DNA of 64,000 nucleotides from Polyodon spathula. Lineage: Eukaryota > Chordata > Actinopteri > Acipenseriformes > Polyodontidae. Positions 2,568 to 52,484 of the stretch are shown here, one piece after another. The stretch is taken from positions 14,375,628 to 14,439,627 of the forward strand of contig NC_054558.1 in the NCBI RefSeq assembly GCF_017654505.1. The letters run 5' to 3'. The position numbers were made by a program, and so were the translations under genes. Position 1 is the stretch's first letter; each line of letters opens with the position of its first letter. The notes below the pieces were generated by a model, which saw only the letters and a program-made list of their open reading frames with translations, was not told the origin of the DNA and did no database searches.

Positions 2568-2875
2568 CACTATGTAACACAATTTTTGTTCCTGGGTAGT
2601 AAGTGTTATTTCCTAATTGCTTATGCCTCAAAAGTATAGAAAATGGCTATTATTCCCCACAAACTTTGCTTTTGTGACCAGGACAGTGATATTTCAAAAT
2701 ATCACTATTTCCAATGGGAAAATGGGAAAATGTGTGTCTTTTCATTCACATAAAGTCAGAAAAAAACAACATATAAATCCAAATGAACATGTATTTATAC
2801 TAATGTAATACAAAGATGACTACAAAAGATTTAGAAGTGAGTAGTTTTTCTAAATTTACAATTATACTGTAAATA
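2567..2875 (-). mobile_element. 3'-end fragment of the same transposon family as 20084-21381
   Basis: Reading the minus strand, the last codons of the ORF, the 3' untranslated part and the terminal repeat match the right end of the 20084-21381 element. They share ACACTATG at the tip, then TAGTAAGTGTTATTTCC and GACCAGGACAGTGATAT. Homology stops near 2875, just inside the coding end. At the position where the larger copy has a TAG stop, this copy reads CAG. The fragment abuts the ATT tail of the SINE, which may have served as the insertion target. Confidence 0.85.
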
Positions 2876-20001: not shown

Positions 20002-20297
20002 ACATCCTTTTGTTATTACTCCTTTAATGAGACACTCCCTCATCCTCTACAAACATGCACCTGCATACACAAGCACAAATATTACACCGTGTAACAATTT
20101 TTTATTTATTTTTTGGTTCCTGAGTAGTAAGTGTTATTTCCTAATTGCTTGTGCCTCATTATTCCCCACAGACTTTGCTTTTGTGACCAGGACAGTGATA
20201 TTTTGAAATTTACCTATTTTCCAGAACATTCCAGATAGATTCAGTGCTGAGTAAACTTGGAGTAACTTCTATAACTTTCCAGTAATATAAATAATAG

Positions 20298-20334
20298 TAT
20301 AAATACAGGGGCCTTAAGCCCACCAGTTCAGTTT
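20298..20334 (+). promoter_or_regulatory. Putative TATA box and initiator of the TIR element
   Basis: TATAAATA at 20298-20305 is followed by an initiator-like TCAGTTT (YYANWYY) with its A at 20330. This gives 32 bp from the start of the TATA to the presumed start site, the usual spacing for pol II core promoters. It lies about 65 bp upstream of the ORF start. Confidence 0.45.
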
Positions 20335-20396
20335 AGTTCCAGCTGCCTAAGTGGATACATATCTGCATTTTTCTGAGATGACATCAAGAGGCTGCA

Positions 20397-21092
20397 ATGG
20401 TGGCATTCCTAATGGGTCTCCAAGGTGGTTTTACCAAGTTTCCCTGCTATCTTTGCCTTTGGGACAGCAGGGACACCAAGGCACACTACCACAGGCGGGA
20501 CTGGTCACACTGGACTGAGTTCTCTGTGGGGAGGAACAACGTCAAGTGGGAGCCACTGGTGGACCCCCGGAAAGTGCTGATGCCACCACTGCACATCAAA
20601 TTGGGCCTTATGAAACAATTTGTCAGAGCTCTAGATAAGGAGTCGTCAGCCTTCAAGTACCTTCAAGACTTCTTCCCTAAGCTGTCTGAGGCAAAGGTCA
20701 AAGCCGGTGTTTTCGTCGGACCACAGATAAAGAAGATCCTGGAGTGCAATGAATTCCCCAAGAAGTTCACTAGTAAGGAGAAAGTGGCTTGGAACAGCTT
20801 TGTCGCAGTGGTTCGGGGCTTCTTGGGCAATCACAAGGCCGAAAACTATGTGGAGCTGGTTGAGACTCTGTTGAAGAACTACGGCACAATGGGCTGTAGG
20901 ATGTCCCTCAAAGTCCATATCCTTGATGCTCATCTTGATAAATTCAAGGAGAACATGGGAGCGTACTCGGAGGAGCAAGGCGAGCGCTTCCACCAGGATA
21001 TACTGGACTTTGAACGCCGCTACCAAGGACAGTATAACGAGAACATGATGGGAGACTACATTTGGGGGCTGATTTGTGAAAGTGATTTATAG
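20397..21092 (+). CDS. Putative transposase C-terminal part, 231 codons (uncharacterised family)
   Basis: The longest open frame in the window. Visible blocks are a Cys-rich GGFTKFPCYLCLWDSRDTK (C-x2-C), the PPLHIKLGLMKQFV block, KAGVFVGPQIKKIL, NSFVAVVRGFLGNHKAENY, a SLKVHILDAHLDKF block and SEEQGERFHQDI...YQGQYNENMMGDYIW. From memory, similar proteins of unknown function are predicted in many animal genomes, including insects, and are longer at the N-terminus. I could not check this. A TGA lies in frame 18 bp before the ATG, so the N-terminal half is missing here. The frame ends at TAG, but the same frame stays open for 11 more codons (to a TAA). The related copy at 2567-2875 has CAG at the equivalent position, so the TAG is probably a C-to-T nonsense change. 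Its position between long TIRs suggests a transposase. The catalytic residues are not established. Confidence 0.6.
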   Translation: MVAFLMGLQGGFTKFPCYLCLWDSRDTKAHYHRRDWSHWTEFSVGRNNVKWEPLVDPRKVLMPPLHIKLGLMKQFVRALDKESSAFKYLQDFFPKLSEAKVKAGVFVGPQIKKILECNEFPKKFTSKEKVAWNSFVAVVRGFLGNHKAENYVELVETLLKNYGTMGCRMSLKVHILDAHLDKFKENMGAYSEEQGERFHQDILDFERRYQGQYNENMMGDYIWGLICESDL

Positions 21093-21381
21093 TATAATCG
21101 TAAATCCCGAAAAACTACTCACTTCTAAATCTTTTGTATTCATTTTTGTATTATTTTAGTATAAATACATGTTAATTTGGATTCATATGTTGGTTTTTTC
21201 TGACTTTATGTGAACAAAAAGATCGTTTTCTCATTGGAAATAGGTACATTTCAAAATATCACTGTCCTGGTCACAAAAGCAAAGTTTGTGGGGAATAATA
21301 GCCATTTTCTATACTTTTGAGGCATAAGTAATTAGGAAATAACACTTACTACCCAGGAACAAAAATTCTGTAACATAGTGT

Positions 21382-22100
21382 TATGTATCAACTTTAGTTT
21401 GTATTCACTATTCCCCCTATGGGCTTTTTTCATCCTATGAATATCTCAAATCCCTGGTCTTGTAAATCACTAAGTGCACAATAAGAGGTCTGTATAACAA
21501 CGTCTTGTGCTAAAACGAATCCTGTACAGCTTGAACCATTCCCACAGTATTTCCAAGATAGATTTCATGTCATGTTCTCAAATACAAGCCCATGTTTAAC
21601 TATTTCTCTTTTTACCGCCATCGCAGTTAACTGCTCTCTTTGTTAGTGACTGCAAAGTTTAATGATAGCTGGGGGGTGATTTCATTTCTAACTGTCATTG
21701 GGAGACATTCCTACACTTGTGAGCTGGTTGAAATCAAGGTCAGTCTCCAAACAGAGCTGTCATTATTTAGTCAAAGTCACTGCTACACGAGTGGTATTGC
21801 TCTTTCTACGATGGGGTCCCAAGTCACCTTGTTGGTGTTGCTATACTACTGCACAATCAGCTCTGAAACAAATTTTATATTTACTAATCTGGTGTGGGTG
21901 TGGGCAGTTACACACAGAACTGGGAATGGGGCATTTATTTCCACTTTTAGCCGACTCCATTGTTTACTATCTTAAGATCCCTAAATCATCTCCTCTTCCA
22001 ATACACACCAAAGATGAGCAATGAGCAATGTGTGCAGTGCTTCCCCAAAATGGGACATTGACATATTATGAAATCCCTAGTGAAAGTGATGGAAGGGATC
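21382..22100. other. Non-coding stretch
   Basis: No gene is recognised. The overlapping frames at 21640-22024 have no family features that I recognise. Confidence 0.35.
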
Positions 22101-22119: not shown

Positions 22120-22260
22120 TTTACATTTGTCCATTTGGAAAACTTTTCAACCAATTGTGATGAAATTTGGCATAAACATTATTTAAGCTAGGCAATGTGG
22201 AGTACTATATTCTGGGGATTTGTGGGGGTGTCTGTCTGTCCGTACATTTCTCAGCCTGCA
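22120..22260 (+). repeat. Dispersed repeat R3 (TCTGTCTGTC type), copy 1
   Basis: It has the order TTGTGATGAAATTTGG, then GGGGATTTGTGGG, then TGTCTGTCTGTCCGTACA. Similar phrases occur at 37060-37430 and 59770-59955. The class is unknown. Confidence 0.5.
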
Positions 22261-22639
22261 TGACACACATTTTGGCATGTATCTGGAAAATCGTGCATAT
22301 GGAAGCTATCCCACATTCTTTAAATCATGTTTATGTACTTAAACACGATACTAACCTCATTTGCTTACCTAATGAAATCTTAGTCTTAAATACCAGATTT
22401 TTCAATAAACTATTCATTGTACTGTATAAAGACAGAATACTTATAGTCTGCATGACACACATTTTGGCATGTATCTGGAAAATCGTGCAGATGGAAGCTA
22501 TCCCACATTCTTTAAATCATGTTTATGTACTTAAACACGATACTAACCTCATTTGCTTACCTAATGAAATCTTAGTCTTAAATACCAGATTTTTCAATAA
22601 ACTATTCATTGTACTGTATAAAGACAGATTACTTGCAGT
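22256..22639 (+). repeat. Near-identical 192-bp tandem duplication
   Basis: Units start at 22256 and 22448 with CTGCATGACACACATTTTGG. They differ at only a few positions, so the duplication is recent. The 192-bp period is a multiple of three, so a 187-codon frame spans both copies. That frame is a by-product and not a gene: the repeated protein segment has no recognisable domain. Confidence 0.9.
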
Positions 22640-22729
22640 CACTTACCATTGTGATGTGAAAGCCATTGTGAAAACCAATGGTGAACCTGTTTACAGATAT
22701 TATATGACATTAGTGACGCAAGGTGGGAT

Positions 22730-29692: not shown

Positions 29693-30370
29693 GGGTAAGG
29701 GTAGAGTGAAACCGTTGGTTTCAAAAGTTCAGGCTTTGTTGGATTCACCGGTACCTACCACGAAAACCCAGGTGAGATCACTGTTAGGGTTGGCTGGTTA
29801 TTACCGCCGCTTTATTCCACACTTTTCCACTATAGCCGCCCCTCTCACTGATCTCACTAAAAAGAACGCTCCAAATAAAATTAAGTGGAGTGCAGAGTGT
29901 CAGACAGCCTTTGAATCTATTAAAACTAATTAGAGTCAGGCCCCAACATTAATAAGCCCGGATTTCAGCCGAAAGCTCGTCCTGCAGACAGATGCATCTC
30001 GAAAGATGGTATAGAACACCCGATACTATACATCAGTCGAAAGTTACTGCCCAGAGAACAGAGGTATTCGGTAGTGGAGAAAGAATGCCTGGCAGTGAAA
30101 TGGGCAGTGGAATCTTTAAAATACTATCTTCTGGGACAACCTTTTGTACTCATCACAGATCACACTTCTTTAAAGTGGTTAGACATGATGAAGGATTCAA
30201 ACGCTATGATTACACGGTGGTACCTGGCGCTCCAACCCTTCGCCTTTCAAATAAGGTATCGTGCGGGTAAGTTACATCAAAATGCTGATTTTTTTTCCCG
30301 GGAGGAAGGGAAAAGGGAAGGGTTAGAGGTTTCCGAGTGTTCCTTCGGCTCCACTCTGAGGGGTGGGATA
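29693..30370 (+). pseudogene. Ty3/gypsy pol remnant (end of RT plus RNase H)
   Basis: The remnant starts in the thumb/connection part of the reverse transcriptase: KTQVRSLLGLAGYYRRFIPH is the diagnostic block. The polymerase FxDD motif has been deleted. A TAG interrupts the frame at 29931-29933. RNase H follows in pieces: LVLQTDAS (first Asp), then a small deletion and frameshift, then a re-opened frame with KECLAVKWAVESLKYYLLG (Glu), LITDHTSLKWL (Asp) and NADFFSREEG (last Asp). No integrase is present: sequence runs from RNase H straight to the polypurine tract and LTR, so integrase was lost too. The copy cannot be functional. Confidence 0.9.
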
Positions 30371-30957
30371 TGTGATGAGTCAAAGGGATTTCGGTCTGTG
30401 ATTCAGCCTCCCGACAGTAGATGGCATCAAACCAACTCGGGACTTCCCTTACCAAGATCTCGTGACCATGGCAAAAGTCATCTTTTGAGGGGCGACACCT
30501 TGGTGAGGGGCGGAAGTACGAGTATGTAAATTCCAGCCACTGGAGTCAAGTGAAGGATAAGGACACTTGTCAGTTGGGGATTGGTGTTCCACTGACTACA
30601 GAGGCGGGACATTACATACTAAAGGGAACATACTACTGTGTTCGGGGTTGGTCCGAAAGTAAAATAGGAGGAGTAACGGGTGGAGGGAGAAACTAGTTTG
30701 GTGCAGCGGGATTTAAAAAAAAAAAAAACATTTCTTTTGTCTTTTTTTGTTTATGTATGGTTTGCCACAAAGACGATTAAAGACGAGTTATTACGGTCTG
30801 TTTTGGATTTCACCCCTGCACTCCTTCCCTCACACCATTTTGTTTTCTTTTGTTATTTAATTATTTTGTTGTGTATAGATAATAAAAATAAATTATTTTA
30901 TTTCTGTACACATAAATTACTGTCTGGACATTCCATTTAATACACTCTCGCCTCACA
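30371..30957 (+). mobile_element. 3' LTR of the gypsy element
   Basis: The LTR is bounded by TGTGATGAG on the left and GCCTCACA on the right. It contains a poly-A run (about 30716-30728) and AATAAAAATAAA-like signals about 70 bp from its end. The intact right-hand target duplication defines its end. Confidence 0.85.
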
Positions 30958-41232: not shown

Positions 41233-41479
41233 AGGAGGCAGTGTGGTCTCTATAGTCTCAGGCTTGTAACTAGAAGATCACCGGTTCAAATCCCACCTCT
41301 ACCACTGACTGACTCACTGTGTGACTCTGAGCAAGTCACTTAACCTCCTTGTGCTCCATCCTGCGGATGAGATGTTAAATCAATGTCCTAATGTAAGTGA
41401 CTCTGCATATAATGCTTTGTGCTTTGTGATGGTGGTCCACTATGAAAGGTGCTATATAAAAATAAAGATATTATTATTG
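41233..41479 (+). mobile_element. SINE family A, copy 2
   Basis: A-box-like region GTGTGGTCTCTATAG, B-box GGTTCAAATCC (about 41283-41293), GTCACTTAACCTCCTTGTGC, and the 3' tail GAAAGGTGCTATATAAAAAT with ATT repeats. Full length compared with copy 1. Confidence 0.85.
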
Positions 41480-44811: not shown

Positions 44812-45087
44812 TATAATAATAAATAATAATCTTTATTTTTATATAGTGCCTTTCATAGTTGATCACCATCTCAAATCTCTTTACAAGATACGAGACTAGG
44901 GGGTGTGAACTATGCATCAGCTGCAGAGTCACTTACAACAACGTCTCACCCGAAAGATAGAGCACAAGGAGGTTAAGTGACTTGCTCAGGGTCACACACA
45001 GTGACTCAGTGGCTGAGCTGGAATTTGAATCTAGGTACCTCCTGGTTACAAGCCTGTTTCTTTAACCACTGGACCACATAGCCTTCT
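44812..45087 (-). mobile_element. SINE family A, copy 3
   Basis: A full-length minus-strand copy. Its tail (AATAATCTTTATTTTTATAT) is at the left. The complementary B-box (GGAATTTGAATCTAGG) lies near 45020 and the A-box (CCACTGGACCACATAG) near 45066-45081. Confidence 0.88.
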
Positions 45088-46750
45088 ATATAGAACCACT
45101 GCTTCCTGTGCTTAGCTTCAGCATCCCACATACTAGACTAAAAGATGGAGCTGCTAGCTATACAGTGGATGTACCTATTCCACTGCCATGGTAAATGAAT
45201 GTGTACTATACTAAAAATAACACGTTTCTATTTAATATAACATTACATGCTGACAGAATCTGAAACACAAAATAGTATAATTACCCAATACAGTCAATGA
45301 TTTTTTATATGCCTAATGTAACATTGTGAGCAATAAAAGATAGCAAGGTTCTGCTTCTGTATTACAGTTGTGCTGGTTTTCTTATTTGGTACATCTTTAA
45401 AGGTGCTATAATGATGCAATGCCTAAAACTACATTTCAGACTTGATTTCTAAGTCATGTCATATACTACTTTCCAAAACAGTCCAGAGCTGGCTGACTGT
45501 GCACACAGATTTGTTTAGTATCTCTAAAAAGAAAAATATTTGAGCAATGCATCTTCTCCAGTTTCAACAATGCAATCTAAACATATACAGTGTATTGTAT
45601 TAAATGTCCTGTAAATATTTGTATTAAAAGAGAAACAAGACTTTGATCCAACATTTCACCCTACAAATCTAGATGGAGTGCATTTTAGGAGGTGGTGTTC
45701 CTCTCCTCTTTAGGTGTGTTTGACACTGTCAAAGAAGCATGAGGTGTCAGGTTTGAACTAGAATTGAATTTAAAAGGGTAGTGTTCCCTTTGAAAAGACA
45801 AACAACTTTCCCTAACTGCTTAAAAAAACAACCACAAAGCAAACAACAAGAGCGAGAGAGAGCAGCATTCCTTTCATGAAACACTCTGAAGATGACAAGT
45901 GGAGCTTAGACTCACACTGGCAACCCTTTGAGCTCTATATACTTTCCCTGAGGCCTGACTTGTTTAAATTATTTAAAGAATAATTGCATCACATAATGAA
46001 TGTGTATTAGGGAATATTTATATGAAGACCCTAATGCTATATAAAGTGTGGCACTAAACATGAATCTGACCCTTTGTAGTTTTATATATGCTGTATTACA
46101 ATTCAGTTGTGTATACAAAGCTTTCTCAAGCTGTGCGACTCCTTCAGTTTTAAGTGTCATTACCTCTTGCCTCCTTCTTATACTAATACTAATTCTTACA
46201 AATGGAACTTGCTTTAAAAAAAAATGAGGTCATGTAACATGTAACTGTAGCTACTGGTAATTGATATTGCTTTATTTAGAGAAGTAGAAATAAATAATAC
46301 TAATACAGCTATCATCACTATTATCACTACTTCTTACATTTCTTCCCGATCCTGATCTCTTTGTGGTGCCTGTCCTTGGCTCACCAAGACAAGAGAGCTC
46401 CTGGTGAGTGCTCTGGGTGAATGCTCTTGGTTCTCAATGGAGAAGGTCTCCTTGATTGTGGAGCCAGGTTCTGATTGATTTGGAGCAGGCCCAGGAGGAG
46501 TCCACTGTTGATATGGTGGTCTTTGTCAATCAGTCAGCACTAAATTGAGTGGTCTGCACCGTTCCCTTTGGTTTATTTATACACCTTAACATTTCATTTA
46601 CAGACCCTCTTGACACACTGTTTCATTTTATTTGGTTAAATATCTGTCCTTGTTAGCAACACTCTGTTTAAAGGTGCAAAATACTTTTTTTTTTTTGTTG
46701 TCCTTTGACAGCTGATGTTGTCACTAAATGGATATTTAAATATGACTACT
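45088..46750. other. Non-coding stretch
   Basis: No gene is recognised. 46340-46560 is GC-richer, with CAAGACAAGAGAGCTCCTGG and GGAGAAGGTCTCCTTG. No coding frame is supported there. Confidence 0.35.
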
Positions 46751-49310: not shown

Positions 49311-51289
49311 GTCACTGTTGGACAAATGTTGTATGTAAAATGATTTTACAGGGATTGCTTCAGAGTAATACGCTATATGAACATTAGCAATGCTTTTATC
49401 AACAAGCTATACTTTTTGCAAACCGCTCAAAAGGTTTTCTATAAACTGTTTTAAACACCTTGCTGTACAGGCGCTGACTTCACGGTGCTCCAGAGCTCAA
49501 GCACCCATGGATTATGATAAATAGGTGCTCAGCACCCACCCCAAACACTGTTTTATGCAATAAATGTGATTCATGATCTGTCATGTTAAAAACGTTGCCC
49601 TGAAATCAAATATTAAAAAACCATTAGATTAAGAGGTCGTGCATAGAGCAAATACTCCGTCCATGCTTGTACAATATAGTCAGTGTGGCAGTTTCACAAT
49701 CAGATTTGTGCTGTTAAAAAGTAAAATGTTAAAGTCAATCAAGTAATGGAGTTTTAAGCAAATGACTTTGATGTGCAGAGATTAAAACTTCACGAGACGT
49801 GTGTTTATAGAGAACTCAGCAGAAACATATCCCAATATCTAGCGTTCATAACATCATCGCATTTCTACTCACTGAAGGTAATAAAGACTTGGGGAATATG
49901 TTACCTGAGTACTGCAAATTTTGAAGAATCTGTTTCATCCTACATTGCTCATTCTCCAGCCTCAGAAGATGAGGCTGAATCATGTTGCTGTCCATTTCGA
50001 AGCACCTGCTAGCAGAAACAAGCCTATGCCTTGCTGATTTTCTCAAGTGATTGATACAATTTGAAGATGTTGCTACAAGGCTTTGACGCTATCCCAGTGG
50101 CATTTTTCAACCTTTTCTATAAGGGTACAGGAAGCTTGCTTTCTGCATCACCACTCTTTATGGAAAAGGTACTTCCACCTCTCCCCCCTAAGATGTCTGG
50201 TATATTTTTTTTAGTAACCCGAACAGCTCTGTTGTGTGTTTTCGTAAATACCTTACAGTTTCCATTACATTTCGGGCATGCAAAGTTTTCTCAGTGGGAT
50301 CTCTTTCTGCCTTAGGCCCTTTCTCAGCCACGGAAGCCTGGAACTTGCATGATCTTCACAGCCAGTCTTTGGCTTCAGTTACCAGGACTTAAAATATTTA
50401 ACAGCCCTCAGCTTTCTTACATGTGCAAACTGCTAGGAATCACTTTTTGTGACAATGCCCTTTTAGAAAGAGAGTTCACCAGGGAATTCAAAACTCTTAA
50501 TCCCTGCCAGTCCTGTTCTTGAAAGGGGTAGAAATGAGGCACGTGGAACCCTTTTTTTGAAGAAATCTTTTTTTTTTTTTTTTGGCACACTCTTGTGTAT
50601 ACAATTGCAAATATCACTTCCTCAGCTGGTAAAATAGCAAATTAGTATTAATGTACCTCCCCACCCAGAGTCTCTTATACTTTACCACCTGGGGAACATT
50701 CTGTATGATGTTAAAAGCAAATGTACTCCAGAACTGTCAATAGACCATCATTGTTACCAGCGTCTGCTTATAAAGAAACAGCACATGTTGTGATTCCCCG
50801 TGAAAGCATTAAAATGTATCAGATCTGCATGAAGTGATTCTACAAGGATAAACTGTCAATGTTCACTGGAGACTGCTGTCCAGCAAGTTTACCTTGCATT
50901 CATTCAAATCTAATAATAGTATGGCGGGCAAATTATATTGTTCCAAATTACATCGCTAAGCAAATTCAGAGCTTGAGCTAAAGAAAGTCATTGTCAGATT
51001 TCTCTTTTTTTTTTTTAAAATTCAGATTTTGCACCAGTGAGCACAATACTCCCTGAACGTTCATTATTTCTCTCATGAGGATATACAACCCTTTGGGGGC
51101 TCGTGGATTATTCGGCTCCCCTCACTCATGGAATAACTGCAGTACTCCATGATTGATGTTCCTCAATATTGCTTCAAAATATATGTCAACTATTTTTTTT
51201 TTACTTAAATGTGCAATATGCAGATTTTTTTTTTATAAAGCACCACTCAGTAATCGCAAAAAGTTTATACTTTCTTCTACCTGTTACTG
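49311..51289. other. Mostly unique stretch
   Basis: No gene is recognised. T-runs occur at about 50568-50582 and 51005-51016. 50870-51000 (AAATTACATCGCTAAGC, GGCGGGCAAATTATATTG) looks regulatory by composition. Confidence 0.35.
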
Positions 51290-52484
51290 AATCACTTCCT
51301 TCACTATATGGTAACAGTATCCTGGGAGACACTCAACATGGTTTGAGGAAAAGGAGATCGTGTCTAACTAACCTGCTTGATTTTTTTGAGGATGCAACAT
51401 TGATAATGGATAATTGCAACGCATATGACATGGTTTATTTAGATTTCCAGAAAGCTTTTGACAAAGTCCCACATAAAAGATTAATTCTCAAACTGAACGC
51501 AGTAGGGATTCAAGGAAACACATGTACATGGATTAGGGAGTGGTTAGCATGTAGAAAACAGAAAGTACTGATTAGAGGAGAAACCTCAGAATGGAGTGTG
51601 GTAACCAGTGGTGTACCACAGGGATCAGTATTAGGTCCTCTGCTATTCCTAATCTACATTAATGATTTAGATTCTGGTATAGTAAGCAAGCTTGTTAAAT
51701 TTGCAGACGACACAAAAGTAGGAGGAGTGGCAAACACTGTTGCAGCAGCAAAGGTCATTCAAAATGATCTAGACAAGATTCAGAACTGGGCAGACACACG
51801 GTAAATGACATTTAATAGAGAAAAGTGTAAGATACTGCACACAGGAAATAAAAATGTGCATTATAAATATCATATGGGAGATACTGAAATTTAAGGGACT
51901 GTGAAAAAAACCTAGGAGTTTTTGTTGACTCAGAAAGGTCTTCATCTAGACAATGTGGGGAAGCTATAAAAAAGGCCAACAAGATGCTCGGATACATTGT
52001 GAAAAGTGTTGAATTTAAATCAAGGGAAGTAATGTTAAAACTGTACAATGCATTAGGAAGACCTCAACTTGAATATTGTGTTCAGTTCTGGTCACCTCGC
52101 TACAAAAAGGTTATTGCTGCTCTAGAAAGAGTCCAAAGAAGAGCGACCAGAATTATTCCGGGTTTAAAAGGCATGTCATATGCAGACAGGATAAAATAAT
52201 TGAATCTATTCAGTCTTGAACAAAGAAGACCATGCAGCGACCTAATTCAAGCATTCAAAATTCTAAAAGGTATTGACAATGTTGACCCAAGGGACTTTTT
52301 CGACCTGAAAAAAGAAACAAGGACCAGGGGTCACAAATGGAGATTAGACAAAGGCGCATTCAGAACAGAAAATAGGAGGCACTTTTTTACACAGAGAATC
52401 ATGAGAGTCTGGAATCAACTCCCCATAATGTTGTTGAAGCTGACACCCAGGGATCCTTCAAGAAGCTGCTTCTGGGATCAATAA
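51290..52484 (+). pseudogene. LINE ORF2 reverse transcriptase pseudogene
   Basis: The first open part (51169-51804) contains DTQHGLRKRRSCLTNLLDFF, VYLDFQKAFDKVPHKRL (finger/palm, first catalytic Asp), TSGVPQGSVLGPLLFLIYIN and KFADDTKVGG (the FADD active site). The frame is then broken by a TAA (51802-51804) and, after further decay at about 51880-51920, resumes in other frames. These give KKANKMLGYIVKSVEF, LYNALGRPQLEYCVQFWSPR, ERVQRRATRIIPGLKG and, after a TAA at 52197-52199, NLFSLEQRRPCSDLIQAFKI and the FRTENRRHFFTQRI block. There is no endonuclease domain because the copy is 5'-truncated. The polymerase residues are intact but no full-length enzyme is possible. Confidence 0.9.

Follow-up and report, generated by a model that had tools for sequence, protein, structure and literature searches.

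A putative internally deleted and amplified Merrow transposon in the genome of the paddlefish Polyodon spathula

Known Merrow elements and the paddlefish locus

According to Zhang et al. (2014; PMC4079192), Merrow (Repbase Chapaev3-1_PM) is an element of about 2,451 bp with two exons of 78 and 484 amino acids, with records from lampreys, white sturgeon and paddlefish, the paddlefish entry being a 304-bp match. Its sister family, Garfield, has 2,289-2,291 bp and exons of 77-78 and 477-478 amino acids (Table 1 of the same paper). Shortened relatives have been described as MerrowN1_TO, a miniature inverted-repeat transposable element from tuna with 577 bp and 18 copies, and GarfieldN1_BM from silkworm, with 468 bp and 97 copies, and horizontal transfer has been published for Merrow. 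In the present work, a window of 64,000 nucleotides from Polyodon spathula (NC_054558.1, positions 14,375,628 to 14,439,627) was analysed, where the stretch 20085..21380 of the forward strand (1296 bp, CAC...GTG ends; coordinates are those of the window) is very probably an amplified, internally deleted, non-autonomous Merrow element of the Chapaev3 group, CMC superfamily.

The full-length relatives of this element resemble the described Merrow in their two exons, 562-amino-acid transposase, length of about 2.45 kb, CAC ends and A-TWA-T target; the window copy differs by lacking approximately 1.1 kb, and neither the deletion junction nor its copy number appears in the consulted parts of PMC4079192. 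As with MerrowN1_TO and GarfieldN1_BM, it is a shortened, amplified and non-autonomous form of the same group, but those two are far shorter and have no exon in Table 1, whereas the window form has 1.3 kb, an open reading frame (ORF) for the C-terminal part and 1,439 junction matches. To what was already known, namely the Merrow family, its transfer and its shortened derivatives in other hosts, the paddlefish deletion derivative is a new addition, and no publication on a Merrow derivative in paddlefish was found among open-licence papers.

Termini, target site and superfamily

The original prediction had placed a unit bounded by terminal inverted repeats (TIRs) of about 140 bp at 20084..21381, proposing an alignment of genomic copies to define its ends. 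This alignment gave the ends 20085 and 21380, each one base inside the predicted position, together with a 3-bp TWA target-site duplication (TSD), so that the element and its location stood with slightly shifted borders. The repeat search detected TIR arms at 20111-20219 and 21238-21365 (97% identity over 62 nt, 92% over 48 nt), which extend to both element ends, resulting in a left TIR of about 135 bp (20085..20219, forward) and a right TIR of 143 bp (21238..21380, reverse). The left one lacks a 19-bp block that is present in the right TIR of the same copy and in the two other aligned copies. The element is flanked by TTA on the left (20082..20084, preceded by A) and by the same TTA on the right (21381..21383, followed by T), giving the context A-TTA...TTA-T.

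A protein search of the 1.54-Gb assembly returned 4,462 first-look candidates, from which 150 were scored (93-100% identity) and the 30 best-scoring loci were fetched, 12 with the junction of the window copy and 18 with the undeleted site. Both ends could be scored in 24 of these 30 loci, the remaining six being unscorable, and an identical 3-bp TSD was present in 17 of the 24, always TTA or TAA, with the A-TWA-T context in 13 of those 17; L003 and L029 of this sample have common flanks and may be one locus counted twice. These two loci, on contigs C3737 and C6, have identical flanks and are probably a single locus assembled twice, or a duplication. A second sample of 30 loci, chosen by the exact junction only, comprises the first ones listed, all on contig C1; excluding eight unscorable loci, an identical TSD was found in 16 of 22, TWA in 13 and A-TWA-T in 12. 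When the joined flanks of 39 copies were used as queries, three matched across the insertion point (L006, L002 and L058): for L006, two related empty sites carry a single clean TTA (compared with L010 and L058), while the matches of L002 and L058 are imperfect. The TSDs and the empty site of L006 confirm that the TIRs are the termini of a DNA transposon. A 7-bp TSD (TGTAACA) was also considered and rejected, because these seven bases belong to the terminal repeat.

Regarding the superfamily, which the original prediction could not name, the TWA duplication with A before and T after is a feature of the Chapaev3 group, and its combination with the Chapaev3 description fits better than an IS3EU or CACTA/EnSpm identity, which was then dropped. 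The 562-amino-acid protein of the full-length copies (P0121), in which M79 opens a stretch of 484 amino acids, possesses C336-x2-C339, L384-H385 and H493-x4-H498. The three motifs, C(2)C, LH and H(4)H, are named as CMC/Chapaev motifs in PMC4079192 and all of them occur in the window ORF; the protein blocks that had been taken as matching no Tc1, hAT, Harbinger or piggyBac signature are diagnostic of the Chapaev group. D263, D317 and E515 are invariant in 74 relatives and present in the full-length copies, and by this conservation and the predicted fold they probably form the catalytic triad; the window copy retains only the glutamate.

The catalytic domain has a predicted fold of the RAG1/Transib type, as obtained by re-examination of Foldseek's own top 1000 matches, being similar in this respect to HzTransib and RAG1/ProtoRAG. 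Weak Foldseek matches to IS110-type proteins, glucokinase and others, which had no realignment, were not used. RAG and Transib systems also have C-x2-C and H-x4-H between the second aspartate and the glutamate, as well as CAC-type ends; they are nevertheless different families, and the TSD of the paddlefish element has 3 bp, compared to the 5 bp of Transib. The sizes of Garfield do not correspond to those observed here, as exon 2 reads as 484 amino acids and 13 of the 14 full-length copies scorable at both ends have 2,340-2,464 bp, the other one having 2,100 bp. A PIF/Harbinger element would share the 3-bp TWA duplication, a feature common to both groups; the CAC termini, the C(2)C, LH and H(4)H motifs and the predicted RAG1/Transib-type fold speak against it, and Pfam gives no Harbinger domain for either protein part at E-values up to 10, leaving this assignment with next to no probability.

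Deletion junction and the remnant reading frame

Compared with seven of the eight full-length copies measured, the window copy lacks 1102-1126 bp, and 1019 bp compared with the eighth, the deletion being joined at 20396..20397, where two bases (AA, read by eye) are common to both sides. The full-length copies begin with MASRGCK and contain a GT-AG intron, as seen in L014, whose splice sites put the end of exon 1 earlier than M79, at about residue 70; exon 2, which ends in the ORF of the window, has 499 uninterrupted codons in 5 of the 11 translated full-length copies. The deletion takes away the greater part of exon 1 together with the intron and the initial part of exon 2, including both putative catalytic aspartates, and the window copy passes directly from codon 7 of exon 1 to a methionine of exon 2 located three residues past the GD motif. 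Allowing up to two mismatches, the junction string has 1,439 matches in the assembly (728 + 711), with none for the reversed control, and the undeleted site has 1,199 (610 + 589; control also none), a count that may take in other derivatives retaining that site. Lengths of 1,227-1,358 bp were measured in 17 of the 22 junction copies that could be scored. Five other short-junction copies, L036, L058, L038, L041 and L052, have lengths of 892, 988 and 2,052-2,266 bp, with further deletions or nested insertions.

Both ends kept, an internal deletion and a single amplified junction characterize a non-autonomous deletion derivative. A full-length Merrow of about 2.4 kb with two exons would produce a DDE transposase of the RAG1/Transib type; one of its copies would have lost about 1.1 kb, from exon 1 to the middle of exon 2, and, since both ends were retained, this shortened copy could probably be moved in trans by the transposase of the full-length copies, after which the short form would have multiplied to more than 1,000 copies. 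As judged from the letters of both classes, the short form is a recent branch of this family, because no majority difference separates short and undeleted copies across 732 nt, with only one site showing a frequency gap above 0.3.

The promoter of the transposase gene was preserved upstream of the junction (20298..20333, forward). TATAAATA occurs twice, at 20286 and 20298, the second copy (20298-20305) preceding an initiator-like TCAGTT (20328-20333) whose A lies 32 nt further downstream, in agreement with the predicted TATA-initiator spacing. Allowing up to eight substitutions, two insertions and two deletions, the 83-nt block from TATA to ATG could be located in 29 loci among the first 30 and in 26 among the next 30. 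It is followed by the remnant of exon 1 (20378..20396, forward), consisting of the start codon and 16 nt, so the first ATG lies 19 nt upstream of that of the 231-codon ORF and in a different frame, the same spacing being seen in 26 of 30 junction-chosen copies.

This ORF (20397..21092, forward) corresponds to residues 320-550 of the full-length protein, the C-terminal half of the transposase, and keeps the C(2)C, LH, H(4)H and glutamate motifs without D263 and D317. Its length results from a stop in the window copy at codon 232 (21090-21092), absent from the majority form of 243 codons; in total, 17 of 732 sites in the window copy depart from the majority, that stop among them. The original prediction had described a single conserved-looking, transposase-like ORF: the 231 codons at this position and the relation to transposases were correct, although it is a back half lacking both aspartates instead of an intact gene, and no selection was detected on it. 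One long ORF within TIRs, accompanied by a promoter and with no Pfam match, could suggest an autonomous transposon of an unnamed superfamily, with the 231 codons as the whole transposase. Against it, the ORF starts three residues past the second conserved aspartate of the longer protein, the old start codon belongs to a different frame, and of 30 copies taken without regard to the ORF, 24 have a frame that misses the C-terminus; full-length copies sharing these ends, together with the common deletion junction, refute this explanation, whose probability is negligible.

Of 30 copies chosen by the junction alone, six have a frame that runs through to the C-terminus, and the corresponding region is open in 11 of 30 copies chosen by the undeleted site. 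The observed/expected ratio of nonsynonymous to synonymous changes (N/S) is 0.89 for short and 1.03 for undeleted copies, leaving out five and two of 30, respectively, with less than 70% cover or more than 10% divergence; when misaligned copies were still included, it was 0.94, with 69 nonsense changes compared to 56 expected. Nonsense changes reach 1.17 of the expectation in short and 0.68 in undeleted copies, not being rarer in the former, and the two classes diverge from the majority by a median of 2.5% and 1.8%, respectively. Separating the variants, singletons have an N/S of 1.02 (short) and 1.11 (undeleted), and those in at least two copies of 0.79 (short; 35 nonsynonymous, 20 synonymous) and 0.91 (undeleted). 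As N/S and nonsense counts are near expectation, the short ORF looks close to neutral, and selection on it is not supported by these counts.

Truncated repressors are known from P elements, and a truncated protein retaining the zinc-binding motifs and the helix of the catalytic glutamate might regulate transposition in trans, explaining why the short form was retained. The abundance of this single deletion, the frame open in the window copy and in the six others, and the shared-variant N/S are compatible with such a role; the overall near-neutral counts, nonsense changes no rarer than in undeleted copies and the first ATG opening another frame make it very improbable. The 231-codon ORF probably yields no useful protein, and it is a decaying relic carried by a non-autonomous Merrow subfamily, because the catalytic aspartates are lost, the frame is mostly broken, the substitutions look neutral and the old start codon precedes the ORF in another frame.

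Some observations weigh against the proposed identity and its history. The name Merrow is a probable one, which follows from anatomy compared with the published description. An identical TSD is missing in 7 of 24 and 6 of 22 scorable copies of the two samples. Foldseek alone gives weak and mixed matches, the best at E 5e-3 and none at 0.001 or below, and the profile search that had been proposed for the ORF, run against Pfam, had no significant match for it or for either exon part. Moreover, a shared-variant N/S below that of singletons in short copies may reflect weak constraint before they spread. A sequence search of the PDB gave chance-level matches only, and the ORF peptide string had no literature match.

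Relatives, neighbouring features and meaning

Relatives in distant animals and horizontal transfer had been suggested from the beginning, and protein matches, a tree and PMC4079192 agree with it. The best named protein match comes from Acipenser ruthenus. Identity of the exon-2 protein is 96% with Myxocyprinus and 95% with Acipenser; the three partial Lethenteron proteins reach 87-92% and a mantis shrimp protein 80%. In a tree built from 20 selected rows, as had been proposed for comparison with the host tree, which it does not follow, the paddlefish copy groups with Acipenser, Myxocyprinus and lampreys (support 80/81, weak and drawn open), and Serrasalmus and Metynnis group with frog (98/98). 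This pattern suggests a departure from the host phylogeny, in agreement with the published transfer of Merrow, to which it adds little.

In Acipenser ruthenus, a gene model of 243 amino acids (P0001, lead of a 14-member cluster) begins at the methionine of the short ORF and differs from the paddlefish majority form at 4 of 243 residues. The same deletion derivative might then be present in sterlet and, if the junction were common, it would have recently entered two anciently separated lineages with its helper, a rare horizontal transfer of a deletion derivative. This is unlikely: the protein alone cannot separate short from undeleted forms, because both have identical majority letters. Another sterlet model, P0013, is a predicted PEX7 isoform that continues into the C-terminal half of the Merrow transposase from VIGDFKMVAFL, which may be an exonisation or a gene-model artefact.

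The window also carries a second, 5'-truncated Merrow fragment on the reverse strand (2568..2874), comprising the 3' end and right TIR, with 93% identity to L014. Its terminus adjoins a repeat (2326-2567) found again at 41259-41476 and 44824-45088. Additionally, a forward ORF at 30074-30529 has a reverse-transcriptase RNase H domain (PF17917), likely a remnant of a long terminal repeat retrotransposon, and another at 51169-51804 has a reverse transcriptase domain (PF00078), likely from a long interspersed nuclear element (LINE); by eye, the Merrow copy of L028 is flanked by sequence resembling this LINE type. At 22253-22640, a direct repeat of about 195 bp occurs as two tandem copies with 97% identity, inside a 187-codon ORF with no Pfam match.

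The assignment places the unnamed ORF, together with similar 'uncharacterized proteins' of animals not covered by Pfam (2,355 matches), in a named transposase family, and gene models starting with MVAFLMGLQGG are probably transposon relics, not host genes. A well-defined and very abundant non-autonomous subfamily, present beside many undeleted copies, can help to date the invasion.
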